A stretch of DNA of 15,549 nt, from contig DNMQ01000285.1 in NCBI GenBank assembly GCA_003488145.1, forward strand, positions 1-15,549, written 5' to 3'. Below are positions 4,175-12,120 of this stretch, one piece after another. The notes under the pieces are model-generated. The model saw nothing but the letters and a program-made list of their open reading frames with translations. It searched no databases and was not told the DNA's origin. The translations under genes were made by a program, and so were the position numbers. Position 1 is the first letter of the stretch; every line of letters begins with the position of its first letter. This DNA comes from Pseudomonas sp. GTDB lineage: Bacteria > Pseudomonadota > Gammaproteobacteria > Pseudomonadales > Pseudomonadaceae.

Positions 4175-4561
4175 TTGGACAAGAACATGAAAATCCTCAT
4201 CGTCGATGACTTCTCGACGATGAGACGAATCATCAAGAACCTCCTGCGTGATCTGGGGTTCACCAACACCGCCGAAGCGGATGACGGTACTACCGCGCTG
4301 CCGATGCTCAAGAGCGGCAGCTTCGACTTCCTGGTGACCGACTGGAACATGCCGGGCATGAGCGGCATCGATCTGCTGCGCACCGTGCGTGCCGATGAGC
4401 GCCTCAAGCACCTGCCGGTGCTGATGGTGACGGCCGAAGCGAAACGCGATCAGATCATCGAAGCCGCCCAGGCCGGGGTTAACGGCTATGTGGTCAAGCC
4501 TTTCACTGCCCAGGTGCTCAAGGAGAAGATCGAGAAGATCTTCGAGCGCGTCAACGGCTGA
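4175..4561 (+). CDS. cheY: Chemotaxis response regulator CheY
   Basis: CheY is the single-domain receiver that carries phosphate from CheA to the flagellar switch protein FliM. Starting at TTG 4175 the protein is [18 protein letters not shown] and has 128 residues. Acidic-pocket residues are D11 and D12, the phospho-acceptor is D56 (TDWNMPG), and the switch residues are T86, Y105 and K108. Each is offset by one from E. coli CheY (D12, D13, D57, T87, Y106, K109). The four extra residues relative to ATG 4187 (124 residues) match the start of E. coli CheY (MADKEL) and the DKN-type starts I recall from Vibrio and Shewanella. The Shine-Dalgarno spacing also supports TTG. Annotations commonly use the ATG. 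cheZ, encoding its phosphatase, follows after 23 bases. Confidence 0.96.
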
Positions 4562-4584: not shown

Positions 4585-5379
4585 ATGACGCAAGCAGACC
4601 AAAGCCTGGCAGAGTTCGAAGCGACTCTGAAGGCGCATGCACCCAAGTTGATCGAAAGTCTGCAGCAGGGCCGCTTCGATGAAGCGACGCAGATGTTCAA
4701 TGAGCTGAATCAGGTGCGTAATCACGGGCTTTATCTGGAAGTTGGCAAGCTCACACGCGAGCTGCACAACGCCATCGTCAAGCTCGAGATGGACACCTGC
4801 GCCACTGGCGGCGATCCGTCGCCGATCACGGACGCGACCGATCGCCTGTCCTACGTGGTGGAGATGACCGAGAAGGCTGCCAACCGCACCATGGACCTGG
4901 TCGAAGAATCAGCGCCGCTGGTGAACTACGTGAGCTATGAGGCGCAGAGCCTGACAGCCGACTGGCAGCGTTTCATGCGTCGTGAGATGAATGCCGATCA
5001 GTTCCGCGATCTGGTCAAGCGCATCGACCAGTACCTGCAGCGCAGCATGAACGATGGCGGCCAGCTGTCGCAGAACCTCAGCGAAATCATGCTGGCGCAG
5101 GACTTCCAGGACCTGACCGGGCAGGTGATCAAGCGAGTGACGCGCCTCATCACTGAACTCGAAAGCAACCTGCTTAACCTGGTCCTGATGGCGGGGCAGG
5201 TCGATCGCGTGGCAGGCATCCAGCATGACCGCGAGGCGATGCGCGCCGAGCAGGAAAAGAAAAAACAAGAAAAAGAGCCTTCCAAGGGTGAAGGTCCGCA
5301 GATGCATGCCGATATGCGTGAAGACGTCGTTTCCGGCCAGGACGATGTCGATGATCTGCTTTCAAGCCTGGGCTTTTAG
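4585..5379 (+). CDS. cheZ: CheY-P phosphatase CheZ
   Basis: CheZ speeds removal of phosphate from CheY and ends the motor signal. The 264-residue protein is largely helical and should dimerise as a long four-helix bundle. The catalytic signature QDFQDLTGQ places D176 and Q180 at the positions of E. coli D143 and Q147. The extreme C-terminus QDDVDDLLSSLGF (residues 252-264) is the CheY-binding peptide of the family. Between core and tail is a very charged linker rich in Lys and Glu (about residues 216-235). It is encoded by an A-rich run at 5252-5274 that stands out in this G+C-rich gene. ATG 4585 has GAGGG at 4576-4580, 4 bases upstream. The gene is longer than E. coli cheZ (214 residues) but ordinary for pseudomonads. 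cheA starts 11 bases after the stop. Confidence 0.96.
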   Translation: MTQADQSLAEFEATLKAHAPKLIESLQQGRFDEATQMFNELNQVRNHGLYLEVGKLTRELHNAIVKLEMDTCATGGDPSPITDATDRLSYVVEMTEKAANRTMDLVEESAPLVNYVSYEAQSLTADWQRFMRREMNADQFRDLVKRIDQYLQRSMNDGGQLSQNLSEIMLAQDFQDLTGQVIKRVTRLITELESNLLNLVLMAGQVDRVAGIQHDREAMRAEQEKKKQEKEPSKGEGPQMHADMREDVVSGQDDVDDLLSSLGF

Positions 5380-5390
5380 GGGATGTGAAT

Positions 5391-7583
5391 ATGAGCTTCG
5401 ACGCCGATGAAGAAATCCTCCAGGATTTCCTGGTAGAGGCCGGCGAGATTCTCGAACTATTGTCAGAGCAACTCGTGGAGCTGGAAAGCAGCCCCGATGA
5501 CATGGCGTTGCTCAATGCGATTTTTCGCGGGTTCCATACGGTCAAGGGCGGTGCCGGTTTCCTCCAGCTGCATGAGCTGGTGGAGTGCTGCCACATCGCC
5601 GAAAACGTCTTCGACATCCTGCGCAAGGGTGAGCGTCGAGTCGATTCCGAACTGATGGATGTCGTTCTGCAGGCGCTCGACGCCGTGAACGCGATGTTCA
5701 GTCAGGTCCGCGAGCGCGTCGAGCCGACGCCAGCCTCGCGTGAGTTGCTTGCGGCGCTGGCACGTCTGGCGGAGCCAGCCTCGGCTGATGAGCCCGCGCC
5801 GGCAGTCGAACCGCAGGTCGTGGCCGAACCCCGGTCCGAGGGCGCCGATAGCGAATTCGAACAGATGCTCGATGCCATTCAGCCGTCCGCCAGCGAGCCG
5901 GCTGCGGCCGAAGTAGCGACTGGCCCTGCCACCGACGAGATTACCGACGACGAATTCGAGTCGCTGCTCGACCAGCTGCATGGCAAGGGACAATTCTCTG
6001 CCGCTGCGGGTGCCTCGATGCCTGCCGAGAGCGAGTTCGTTGCTGCGCCGACCAGTGACGAAATCACCGATGACGAATTTGAAGCCTTGCTGGACCAGCT
6101 GCATGGCAAGGGCAAGTTCGAAGCGGCCCCGGCTGAACCCGCTGCGCCAGCAAGCGCCGAACCGGCAAAGGGCGGTGCTACAGCTGGTGCAGCTGACGAG
6201 ATCACCGACGACGAGTTCGAAGCACTGCTCGATCAACTGCATGGCAAGGGTAAGTTCGAGCCTGCGGTCGTAGAGACCCCGGCTGAACCTGCTGCGGCTG
6301 TGCCGATCAAACCGGCGCCCAAGCCTGCCCCTGCTGCTGCTCCGGCCAAGGCCGCTCCGGCAGCTGCGGTGAGCAAGCCGGCCGCTGCTGCTCCGGCGGA
6401 AAAGCCTCCGGCCGAGGCCGAGACCACCGTGCGCGTCGATACCGCACGCCTGGACGAGATCATGAACATGGTCGGCGAACTGGTGCTGGTGCGTAACCGT
6501 CTGGTACGCCTGGGCTCCAACAGCGGCGACGAGGCGATGGCCAAGGCCGTCTCCAACCTCGACGTGGTGACGGCCGATCTGCAGAGTGCGGTTATGAAGA
6601 CCCGCATGCAGCCGATCAAGAAGGTCTTCGGGCGCTTCCCGCGCCTGGTCCGCGACCTGGCTCGCAGCCTGAAGAAAGAGATCAACCTTGAGCTCGTCGG
6701 TGAAGAAACCGATCTCGACAAGAACCTGGTCGAAGCCCTGGCCGATCCGCTGGTGCACCTGGTGCGCAACGCGGTCGACCACGGTATCGAGATGCCCGAG
6801 GAGCGCGAAGCCGCCGGCAAGCCGCGTACCGGGCGGGTAGTGCTTTCCGCCGAGCAGGAAGGCGACCATATCCTGTTGATCATCAGTGATGACGGCAAGG
6901 GTATGGATGCCAACGTCCTGCGCGCCAAGGCCGTCGAGAAAGGCATGCTGGAGAAGGATGCCGCCGATCGCCTGAGCGACCTGGAGTGCTACAACCTGAT
7001 CTTCGCGCCGGGCTTCTCGACCAAGACCGAGATTTCCGACGTGTCCGGCCGCGGTGTCGGCATGGACGTGGTCAAGACCAAGATTTCCCAGCTCAACGGC
7101 ACGGTGAACGTGTTCTCCACCAAGGGCCAGGGCTCGCGGGTGGTGATCAAGGTGCCGCTGACCCTGGCGATCATGCCGACCCTGATGGTCATGCTCGGCA
7201 ACCAGGCCTTCGCCTTCCCGCTGGTCAACGTCAACGAGATCTTCCACCTCGACCTGTCGCGGACCAACGTCGTCGATGGCCAGGAAGTGGTGATCGTCCG
7301 CGACAAGGCGCTGCCGCTGTTCTACCTCAAGCGCTGGCTGGTCCACGATGCGGCTCAGGAAGAGCAGCGTGAAGGCCATGTAGTAATTCTCAGCGTCGGC
7401 AATCAGAGCATCGGCTTCGTCGTCGATCAGCTCGTGGGACAGGAAGAAGTGGTCATCAAGCCGCTTGGCAAGATGCTGCAGGGTACGCCTGGCATGTCCG
7501 GTGCGACGATCACCGGCGATGGCCGCATCGCGCTGATTCTCGATGTTCCCAGCATGCTCAAGCGCTACGCACGCAGGATTTGA
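5391..7583 (+). CDS. cheA: Chemotaxis histidine kinase CheA with repeat-bearing linker and no visible P2 domain
   Basis: CheA is the receptor-coupled kinase that phosphorylates CheY and CheB. The protein has 730 residues. P1 (HPt, about 1-110) carries the phosphorylated H49 in FHTVKGGAGF. A low-complexity Ala/Pro/Glu linker (about 115-343) follows, where E. coli has a folded P2 domain; here I see none. It contains three copies of a 21-residue acidic motif and one degenerate copy, listed separately. P3 dimerisation starts near residue 345 (VRVDTARLDEIMNMVGELV). P4 ATPase has the N box with N460 (HLVRNAVDHG), DDGKG at 500-504 and GRGVGMD at 553-559. P5 (CheW-like) fills about 590-730. I chose ATG 5391 (MSFDADEEILQDF) over GTG 5385, with AGGGGA at 5378-5383 seven bases upstream. 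All kinase residues are intact, so it should be active. Confidence 0.97.
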   Translation: MSFDADEEILQDFLVEAGEILELLSEQLVELESSPDDMALLNAIFRGFHTVKGGAGFLQLHELVECCHIAENVFDILRKGERRVDSELMDVVLQALDAVNAMFSQVRERVEPTPASRELLAALARLAEPASADEPAPAVEPQVVAEPRSEGADSEFEQMLDAIQPSASEPAAAEVATGPATDEITDDEFESLLDQLHGKGQFSAAAGASMPAESEFVAAPTSDEITDDEFEALLDQLHGKGKFEAAPAEPAAPASAEPAKGGATAGAADEITDDEFEALLDQLHGKGKFEPAVVETPAEPAAAVPIKPAPKPAPAAAPAKAAPAAAVSKPAAAAPAEKPPAEAETTVRVDTARLDEIMNMVGELVLVRNRLVRLGSNSGDEAMAKAVSNLDVVTADLQSAVMKTRMQPIKKVFGRFPRLVRDLARSLKKEINLELVGEETDLDKNLVEALADPLVHLVRNAVDHGIEMPEEREAAGKPRTGRVVLSAEQEGDHILLIISDDGKGMDANVLRAKAVEKGMLEKDAADRLSDLECYNLIFAPGFSTKTEISDVSGRGVGMDVVKTKISQLNGTVNVFSTKGQGSRVVIKVPLTLAIMPTLMVMLGNQAFAFPLVNVNEIFHLDLSRTNVVDGQEVVIVRDKALPLFYLKRWLVHDAAQEEQREGHVVILSVGNQSIGFVVDQLVGQEEVVIKPLGKMLQGTPGMSGATITGDGRIALILDVPSMLKRYARRI
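5847..5882 (+). repeat. Degenerate first copy of the CheA linker motif
   Basis: Residues 153-164 of CheA read DSEFEQMLDAIQ. They keep the pattern acidic-Phe-acidic-x-hydrophobic-Leu of the three better copies downstream (DDEFEALLDQLH) but lack the ITD lead and the HGKG tail. It is probably a diverged member of the array, or an unrelated short helix; the match is only about six of twelve positions. Confidence 0.5.
5934..5996 (+). repeat. CheA linker motif, copy 1
   Basis: Codes for residues 182-202 of CheA, a 21-residue unit with core ITDDEFESLLDQLHGKG ending in QF. It differs from copies 2 and 3 at two residues (Ser for Ala, Gln for Lys). A 60-base Ala/Pro-rich spacer separates it from copy 2. 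The unit is predicted to form a short acidic amphipathic helix followed by a Gly/Lys turn. Confidence 0.9.
6057..6119 (+). repeat. CheA linker motif, copy 2
   Basis: Codes for residues 223-243 of CheA, with core ITDDEFEALLDQLHGKG ending in KF. The protein is identical to copy 3 over all 21 residues, yet the DNA differs at ten positions, all silent. That pattern argues for selection on the peptide and against a very recent duplication. A 75-base spacer follows. Confidence 0.92.
6195..6257 (+). repeat. CheA linker motif, copy 3
   Basis: Codes for residues 269-289 of CheA, identical in protein to copy 2. It is followed by a Pro/Ala/Lys-rich tether (about residues 295-343) leading into the P3 dimerisation helices. 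The copies are spaced by 20 and 25 residues, so each could bind a partner independently. Confidence 0.92.
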
Positions 7584-10357: not shown

Positions 10358-10443
10358 GCGCTTCAGGGCGCAGTCGTCAAAACACCGTCGCTTTGCCGTT
10401 TCAGGCAATGCCGTTCCGGTCAGCTTCGCCGGGTGGAAGATCA

Positions 10444-11232
10444 ATGAGAGTCTGGGCTGTAGCCAATCAAAAGGGTGGGGTGGGCAAGACCACTACGTCG
10501 ATCGCACTGGCGGGCTTGCTGGCCGATTCCGGCAAGCGCGTCGTCGTGCTGGATCTGGATCCGCATGGGTCGATGACCAGCTATTTCGGGCATGATCCCG
10601 ACAACCTGGACCATAGCGTCTTCGATCTCTTCCAGCACCAGGGTACCGTGCCGGATGGCCTGCCGTGGCAGCTGCTGCTGGCCACCAGTCACGAGCGTAT
10701 CTCGCTGATGCCTTCCAGTACCGTGCTGGCGACACTCGAGCGCCAGTCGCCCGGGCAGAACGGCCTCGGGCTGGTCATTGCCAAGAGCCTGTCGCAGCTT
10801 TGGCAGGACTTCGATTACGCCATCATCGACAGCCCGCCGCTGCTCGGTGTGCTGATGGTCAACGCGCTGGCTGCCAGTCAGCAGCTGGTGATTCCGGTGC
10901 AGACGGAGTTTCTGGCGATGAAGGGTCTCGAGCGAATGGTCAGCACGCTGTCGATGATCAACCGTTCGCGCAAGCAAGCGCTGCCTTACACCATCGTGCC
11001 GACCTTGTTTGACCGCCGCACCCAGGCCTCGATGAATACGCTCAAGGTACTGCGAGCCGGTTATGCCGATCATCTCTGGCCAGCGTTCATCCCGGTCGAT
11101 ACGCGGCTGCGCGATGCCAGCCGCGCCGGCCTGACGCCTTCGCAGTTCGATCCGACCAGTCGTGCGGTTCTTGCCTATCGGGCCTTGCTCAAGCATCTGC
11201 TGGCGTCGCAAGTGTCTCCGCAGGTGGCGTGA
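10444..11232 (+). CDS. parC: ParA-like ATPase ParC for polar positioning of chemosensory arrays
   Basis: ParC-type ATPases (PA1462-like in P. aeruginosa) guide chemotaxis arrays to the cell pole and to daughter cells. They are not plasmid or chromosome ParA proteins, and no parB or parS-like repeat is nearby. The 262 residues start MRVWAVANQKGGVGKTTTSI, with deviant Walker A KGGVGKTT at 10-17. LDLDPHGSMTSYFG and IIDSPPLLGVLMVNAL (Walker B region) follow. The family element QLVIPVQTEFLAMKGLERM is also present. ATG 10444 is preceded by GGAAG at 10435-10439. The 86-base gap after motD holds a weak 5-bp inverted repeat (TTGCC 10393-10397 and GGCAA 10404-10408) and no convincing promoter. parP, encoding its partner, follows after 87 bases. 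The symbol parC follows Vibrio usage and has nothing to do with topoisomerase IV. Confidence 0.92.
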   Translation: MRVWAVANQKGGVGKTTTSIALAGLLADSGKRVVVLDLDPHGSMTSYFGHDPDNLDHSVFDLFQHQGTVPDGLPWQLLLATSHERISLMPSSTVLATLERQSPGQNGLGLVIAKSLSQLWQDFDYAIIDSPPLLGVLMVNALAASQQLVIPVQTEFLAMKGLERMVSTLSMINRSRKQALPYTIVPTLFDRRTQASMNTLKVLRAGYADHLWPAFIPVDTRLRDASRAGLTPSQFDPTSRAVLAYRALLKHLLASQVSPQVA

Positions 11233-11319: not shown

Positions 11320-12120
11320 ATGAGCCGCACCGTCCTAACCGAAACCCGATCCCAGCAGGCGCTGCAGTCCTATCTCGATGGGCTGTTGCAGGACGCTGCC
11401 ATCGAACTGGCCGACTCGGTCAGTCAGGACGAATTCCAGGCGGCCGTGCTCGAGGAGCAACTGCGTGATACGCGGCAGAGCCAACCGCCGCGTCTTGAAA
11501 TAGTCCAGCCGGCGCCGCCGCCCGTGGTGGAAGCGCCTCTAACGATGCCTTCGGTGCCGACTCTTGAGCCGGTCGTGGAGCTCGAGGTTGCGCCGCACCT
11601 GCCCAGCGAGCCAGTCGAAGCCGTGCCTGACGCCCATCCGGGTTGGGGTGAGGAGCCTTTCGAGTGTCTGCTGTTCGATGTGGCAGGGTTGACCCTGGCG
11701 GTGCCGCTGGTGTGCCTGGGCTCCATCTATCCGCTGGCCGGGCATGAGCTGACGCCGCTGTTCGGTCAGCCCGACTGGTTTCTTGGCATACTGCCGAGCC
11801 AGTCAGGCAATCTGAAGGTGCTGGACACCGCGCGCTGGGTGATGCCTGATCGGTACCGTGACGACTTCCGCGAGGGGTTGCAGTACGTGATCTCGGTTCA
11901 GGGCTACGAATGGGGGCTGGCGGTCCATCAGGTCAGTCGCTCGATTCGCCTCGACCCCAGTGAGGTCAAGTGGCGTACGCAGCGCAGTCAGCGTCCATGG
12001 CTGGCCGGTACGGTAATCGAGCATATGTGCGCGCTGGTCGACGTGACTGCGCTGGCCGAGCTGATCGCCAGTGGCGCTGTGAAACAGATGCAGGGCGCGA
12101 CGAAGCCGCGGACGCATTGA
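11320..12120 (+). CDS. parP: ParP-like array-positioning protein with C-terminal CheW-like domain
   Basis: ParP proteins link ParC to chemosensory arrays: the N-terminal part contacts ParC, and the CheW-like C-terminal domain enters the array beside CheA and receptors. The 266 residues start with a short helical segment (LQSYLDGLLQDAAIELADS, about 15-33). A Pro/Glu/Val-rich region (about 56-105) then leads to a CheW-like domain at about 112-250 (FECLLFDVAGLTLAVPLVCLG, then WFLGILPSQSGNLKVLDTARW). This domain is clearly diverged from true CheW: the NLRG loop is replaced by PSQSGN. The start ATG 11320 has only a weak AACGAG upstream (11306-11311). The sigma-28 candidate promoter sits just before it. 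Assignment rests on domain layout plus position between parC and cheW. Confidence 0.88.
   Translation: MSRTVLTETRSQQALQSYLDGLLQDAAIELADSVSQDEFQAAVLEEQLRDTRQSQPPRLEIVQPAPPPVVEAPLTMPSVPTLEPVVELEVAPHLPSEPVEAVPDAHPGWGEEPFECLLFDVAGLTLAVPLVCLGSIYPLAGHELTPLFGQPDWFLGILPSQSGNLKVLDTARWVMPDRYRDDFREGLQYVISVQGYEWGLAVHQVSRSIRLDPSEVKWRTQRSQRPWLAGTVIEHMCALVDVTALAELIASGAVKQMQGATKPRTH

Follow-up and report, generated by a model that had tools for sequence, protein, structure and literature searches.

The window, a 15,549-nucleotide stretch of Pseudomonas sp. DNA, carries a chemotaxis kinase gene, cheA, whose product has four copies of a short acidic motif in the linker between its P1 and P3 domains. Judged by sequence comparison, these repeats are fairly likely to be a multivalent array of CheY-docking peptides that takes the place of a P2 domain. 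The kinase is of the F6 type, the class to which the main chemotaxis kinase belongs in many polar-flagellated Gammaproteobacteria. The gene, the two flanking domains and the four copies lie as follows.

5391..7583, forward strand: cheA, F6-type chemotaxis kinase (Pfam: Hpt, H-kinase_dim, HATPase_c, CheW)
5412..5690, forward strand: P1 (Hpt) domain of CheA (Pfam, residues 10-102)
5838..5879, forward strand: copy 0, degenerate, GADSEFEQMLDAIQ (predicted helix 154-165)
5934..5996, forward strand: copy 1, DEITDDEFESLLDQLHGKGQF (predicted helix 188-198)
6057..6119, forward strand: copy 2, DEITDDEFEALLDQLHGKGKF (predicted helix 229-239)
6195..6257, forward strand: copy 3, DEITDDEFEALLDQLHGKGKF (predicted helix 275-285)
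6423..6602, forward strand: P3 dimerisation domain of CheA, at which the linker ends (Pfam, residues 347-406)

Copies 1-3 are 21 residues each and read DEITDDEFE(S/A)LLDQLHGKG(Q/K)F; the core of copy 0, DSEFEQMLD, begins at 5847. Between copies 2 and 3 all 21 residues agree, yet 10 of the 63 bases differ, in ten codons, and every change is silent. Two residues separate copy 1 from copy 2, and likewise from copy 3. The silent share of random point changes in the codons of copies 2 and 3 is about 24% (transitions weighted 2), and the chance that all ten changes would be silent is about 7e-7. A sequence-only reading had reported three 21-residue copies and a degenerate one between P1 and P3, and had taken the silent divergence of copies 2 and 3 as a sign of selection on the peptide. 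The copies are found at the positions listed above, codon comparison confirms the ten silent changes, and selection on the peptide is well supported by the comparisons that follow.

Forty-nine Pseudomonadaceae CheA proteins (that of the window and 48 from 80 loci) were aligned and the ratio of nonsynonymous to synonymous differences (pN/pS) was determined for each region. The copies keep their positions throughout this alignment, and recent duplication of the copies is therefore rejected. Copy 0 aligns with a good copy in the relatives, with the consensus DITDxEFEQLLDSL. Six Stutzerimonas sequences give pN/pS values of 0.042 (copies 1-3), 0.31 (copy 0), 0.590 (spacers) and 0.049 (P3-P5); among all 49 the values are 0.101, 0.160, 0.614 and 0.102. 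Copies 1-3 are thus as constrained as the catalytic domains P3-P5, within a linker whose spacers drift. The motif is neither absent nor freely varying in close relatives, and strong purifying selection on it is well supported. In an AlphaFold2 model of CheA, four linker helices (154-165, 188-198, 229-239 and 275-285) coincide with the four copies; the spacers between them have a predicted local distance difference test score (pLDDT) below 50 and the linker is otherwise disordered. A PDB search with a piece of the motif gave nothing meaningful (best E 1.7).

To follow the motif beyond this family, 139 F6-type CheA loci from GTDB genomes were chosen by hand from the matches (39 of the 40 in a first set, all 100 in a later one); the label F6 here means similarity to the window CheA and, mostly, neighbouring genes, and is not tree-based. 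A few of these loci are divergent, at 50-60% in P3-P5, and L128, which is not F6, was dropped from the F6 counts. A motif profile was built from 94 copies of the first set and used with a cut-off of 12 bits. At least one copy is present in 138 of the 139 loci: one in 9 loci, two in 33, three in 61 and four in 35. The sole miss, L156, is a 435-residue open frame without most of the linker. All 100 loci outside the profile-building set have the motif. It does not rise above the cut-off in any of 57 other CheA linkers (best 10.7; a 58th, the short fragment L111, was dropped from alignment and motif count) or in any of 40 further CheA from a phylum search (best 11.7), the linkers of which were delimited by a BLAST-based cut.

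No Pfam P2 or CheY-binding domain (PF07194, PF09078) was found in the window CheA at E<=1, nor at E<=0.01 in any of 51 F6 CheA, namely that of the window and 50 of the 128 usable loci among the 139. PF09078 is detected in 8 of the 57 other CheA. When the 51 F6 proteins are aligned, the only conserved segments of the linker are the motifs and the stretch adjoining P1.

The motif resembles the CheY-binding peptides of FliM and CheZ. FliM N-termini from 30 of the sampled genomes read (S/T)Q(D/E)E(I/V)DALL, and 37 CheZ C-termini read QD(E/D/Q)VD(D/E/A)LL(S/A)SLGF; both align with the CheA motif without gaps (column frequencies from n=398 for CheA, n=30 for FliM and n=37 for CheZ). The sequence EIDALL is described as the conserved site for phosphorylated CheY (CheY-P) in FliM and FliY (PMC9126983). 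Two features of the window belong to this comparison.

4184..4561, forward strand: cheY, the proposed ligand of the array (best PDB matches 3to5 and 4hns, named CheY)
5335..5376, forward strand: C-terminal peptide of CheZ, GQDDVDDLLSSLGF, which the CheA motif resembles (searches and CheZ comparison)

We take this peptide to be the CheY-binding tail of CheZ; such tails bind the same face of CheY as the FliM peptide. With the CheA motif profile, the N-terminal window ranks first of about 330 in 30 of 30 FliM proteins, and the CheZ C-terminal window ranks first in 16 of 37 and first to third of about 250 in all 37. The FliM median is reached by 0.34% of 4974 other open frames, one of which is a mislabelled F6 CheA (L117). 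The CheZ median is a best-window value, and the best window is the C-terminus in 16 of 37 only. Both sets consist of orthologues, so that FliM and CheZ each amount to roughly one independent case. The CheA profile also gave a score to a FliN-like frame, SQDDIDALLNQ, from the genome of the window. The reverse test is weaker: with a profile of FliM and CheZ together, the score of the real window linker is matched by 8 of its 2000 shuffled versions.

The sequence-only reading had also named a related possibility for this region, LID of Vibrio CheA. LID is the region of CheA that is bound by ParP through Trp305 (PMC5706961); it is located between P2 and P3 and is described as occurring only alongside ParC/ParP (PMC7534058). 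Both genes are present in the window.

10393..11232, forward strand: parC-like ATPase (searches)
11320..12120, forward strand: parP, with a CheW-like AIF domain (searches)

In this parP the Trp of RPWLAGT is encoded at 11998-12000; it is shared by 15 of 15 ParP in an alignment. The motif occurs in all 87 CheA that have a clear ParP (profile at least 100 bits). Presence of ParC proved uninformative as a discriminator, as a search of 41 genomes gave ParC-level matches in every one of the 40 with F6. Divergent F6 genomes were then added to the sample until nine without ParC appeared (L270, L278, L280, L281, L282, L284, L285, L293 and L299). These nine genomes, 91-100% complete, have no ParC-level match; their best scores are 110-137 bits, the level of chromosomal ParA, and ParC in the other eleven genomes of the same search scores at least 191 bits. 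They have no ParP-level match either, with best scores of at most 33 bits (CheW controls 27-31, true ParP 215-225). The motif is kept in all nine. Since it is kept there, ParP docking is probably not its sole role. LID may nevertheless overlap the motif stretch, because it is chiefly the motifs that are conserved in F6 linkers.

We infer that the repeats bind CheY on its alpha4-beta5-alpha5 face and speed or localise phosphotransfer. Each copy would be an isolated, N-capped amphipathic helix, (I)(T/S)(D/E)xEF(E/D)xLLDxL, in a disordered Ala/Pro linker, and would mimic the CheY-binding peptides of FliM, (S/T)Q(D/E)EIDALL, and CheZ, QDxVDDLLSSL. Three to four copies per chain, or six to eight per CheA dimer, would hold CheY, and possibly CheB too, beside phospho-P1; the avidity of short motifs would thus do the job of the globular P2 domain in E. 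coli. The sequence-only reading had called the motif a docking site present in several copies, which fits the isolated predicted helices, and had left the partner open among CheY, CheB, ParP and ParC. CheY is favoured as that partner because of the likeness to FliM and CheZ (apparently also to FliN), the restriction to a class without Pfam P2, and the persistence of the motif where ParC and ParP are not detected. Most of the reported differences between the CheY of F6 systems and the CheY that works with CheA-F7 are at residues that face P1 (five) or P2 (three) of CheA, and there is also a charge reversal in the FliM-binding helix (PMC7184735); these differences are in line with a different docking mode. 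The CheA of Pseudomonas putida is described with a CheY-binding (P2) domain (PMC11978298), which may correspond to the F6 linker.

Several points weigh against CheY docking. FliM and CheZ peptides prefer CheY-P; a dock on the kinase should favour CheY. The core is in all likelihood an acidic amphipathic helix, and its likeness to FliM and CheZ is modest: the CheA motif has F where FliM has I and CheZ has V, and another window outscores the C-terminus in 21 of the 37 CheZ proteins when the CheA profile is used. The real linker is reached by 14 of 2000 shuffles with the FliM profile alone and by 59 of 2000 with that of CheZ alone; among 4197 other frames, 16, 72 and 18 reach the CheA median with the FliM, CheZ and joint profiles, respectively. 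CheY docking leaves the HGxGK half of the motif unexplained. Taken as a whole, the AlphaFold2 model is poor (pLDDT 52.4, predicted template modelling score 0.29), and therefore only its local helix feature is used here. The ParP profile gives some divergent ParP proteins only 29-50 bits or no match (L297, L130, L295), and the absence of ParP from the nine genomes is less firm than that of ParC. Nor does the absence of P2 set F6 apart, as Pfam P2 is missing from 49 of the 57 other CheA as well; this absence rests on Pfam, which is weak for P2, with no profile-profile search run. Detection of P2 required searches of that kind in PMC10542144.

The unexplained half of the motif could have a partner of its own. 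In a bipartite arrangement, which overlaps and extends the CheY-docking explanation, the FliM-like half would dock CheY, while in some copies the HGxGK half would be the contact for ParP (LID). At least one HG-tailed copy is present in 86 of the 87 CheA with clear ParP, and the remaining one, L129, has QG. All nine genomes without ParC or ParP matches retain the core, and L282 and L284 among them have lost the tail; it is also lost in L139 and L142, which have no parP in the locus, and in L143, where the Trp of ParP is lost. The other seven of the nine keep HG copies, and the per-copy difference has P=0.18 (H, Y or Q before G counted). There are further exceptions to the pattern: L271 and L295 have lost the HG tail despite a ParP-like frame with Trp, and L302 has lost the Trp and keeps one HG copy. 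Independent events are few. A strict link between HGxGK tail and ParP, clean in the first 40 loci, was broken in the larger set and is rejected. The HG(x)G(K) tail may have a role connected with ParP; the bipartite arrangement as a whole we regard as doubtful. So is a wider proposal, to be read as speculative, in which the whole F6 class swapped P2 for FliM-mimicking peptides and the same helices are also the ParP/LID contact, such that CheY and the polar anchor would compete for one site and positioning would be coupled to signalling.

Three of the loci named above have unusual arrangements. In L139 and L142 ParC is at 38-39% and cheW lies directly after parC, with no parP between; the CheA linkers of both are short, with a single motif that has no HG tail. 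In L295 the interval from ParC to CheW is occupied by a short ParP-like frame with Trp.

The copies might instead be buffers for CheY-P, retaining it at the pole in competition with FliM and CheZ, and not docks for a substrate. The peptides they resemble prefer CheY-P, and array and motor share a pole in such bacteria. The linker, though, is placed between P1 and the kinase core, a position that suits the delivery of a substrate, and the motif marks a class without Pfam P2; buffering is for these reasons an unlikely function.

It is also improbable that the array is simply the Vibrio LID, with the sole job of binding the AIF domain of ParP and so tying CheA to a polar ParC/ParP anchor. The position is right, as LID is a part of the CheA linker ahead of P3 (PMC7534058, PMC5706961), and besides the stretch adjoining P1 the motifs are the only conserved segments in the 51 aligned F6 linkers. 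HG copies in 86 of 87 CheA with clear ParP (QG in the last), and the loss of the tail where ParP is absent from the locus (L139, L142) or lacks its Trp (L143), agree with it too. The exclusivity described in PMC7534058, however, does not sit well with nine genomes that keep the motif without detected ParC/ParP (a divergent ParP being possible), seven of them with HG copies and a per-copy P of 0.18. L271 and L295 combine a Trp-bearing ParP-like frame with the lack of an HG copy, L302 shows the reverse, and the likeness to FliM and CheZ is left unexplained.

A SHOCT-like oligomerisation helix, or a generic helix with no CheY role, is very improbable: Pfam SHOCT matches 40 of 51 F6 linkers at E<=0.01 and an N-terminal piece of the window CheA scores 28.5 against a cut-off of 27, but the match covers only positions 12-27 of the 28 in the profile, the full window CheA scores 24.4, below that cut-off, the motif is not C-terminal, and the FliM/CheZ likeness is again unexplained. 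SHOCT was accordingly not accepted as the identity of the motif, on account of the half-profile match and the whole-protein score. It is through the motif that many F6 CheA receive the Pfam SHOCT label, which is also precomputed on many proteins among the matches listed; this label on F6 CheA is probably a misannotation.

The window is a Stutzerimonas operon of flagellar and chemotaxis genes, and its CheA is 98-99% identical to records of S. kunmingensis, S. chloritidismutans and S. stutzeri. The genes flhF, cheY, cheZ, cheA, cheB, parC, parP and cheW were named from searches; the end of flhA, fleN, fliA and a mot-like pair were named by reading open frames. Translation of cheA probably starts at the ATG at 5391 rather than at the GTG at 5385, because homologues start with MSF.

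Other CheA classes have conserved linker segments of different kinds. The consensus of the 57 non-F6 CheA (L087-L116, L187-L214) has a conserved block, WxIxFxP...TGNDP..., between P1 and P3, which probably represents a P2-type domain that the Pfam models do not cover. Ten of the 40 non-F6 CheA from the phylum search (L316, L318, L326-L328, L331, L334-L336 and L340) have the linker element E(V/I)(S/T/P)L(D/E)(D/E)LE(R/A)(A/M)F, for example LRPGEVSLDELERAFRET. It is possibly a docking motif of another CheA class, and other classes may carry peptide docks of their own (compare EVSLDELERAF in these ten).

More than half of CheA proteins are described as having no P2, with an unstructured region instead, and the domain is treated as dispensable (PMC10542144); the sections of that paper covered here do not state how P2-less kinases find CheY. 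The parts of the openly licensed literature that were covered contain no description of the CheA linker as a FliM-like CheY-docking motif; subscription journals, including the LID paper, lie outside this scope. If CheY docking is correct, the 'unstructured' F6 linker would be a multivalent dock for the substrate, made of the CheY-binding peptide that the motor itself uses, and kinase, phosphatase and motor would compete for CheY through one peptide code. LID would then be recast.

The array can be compared with four known systems. With SHOCT (PF09851) it shares the second half of the profile (ITxEEFE...L); unlike SHOCT, the CheA motif is without the first half and is not C-terminal. Vibrio LID has the same linker position before P3 and is likewise present in CheA with ParC/ParP, but it is said to be exclusive to ParC/ParP species and the F6 motif seemingly is not. 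The FliM and CheZ peptides, and the FliN/FliY variants, are short helices in flexible regions like the CheA motif, and FliM and CheZ have the same ungapped core: a polar cap, D/E-E, a hydrophobic residue, D/E, any residue, L, L, two residues and L/V. They differ in that the CheA array is internal (residues 154-291 of 732), where FliM and CheZ peptides are at a chain terminus, usually has two to four copies, and has an extra HGxGK tail; its binding to CheY is putative. The P2 domain (PF07194, PF09078) is globular, whereas the F6 array is a set of short repeated helices with no match to these models in 51 of 51 F6 CheA; the two have in common their location between P1 and P3 and, as proposed here, their job.

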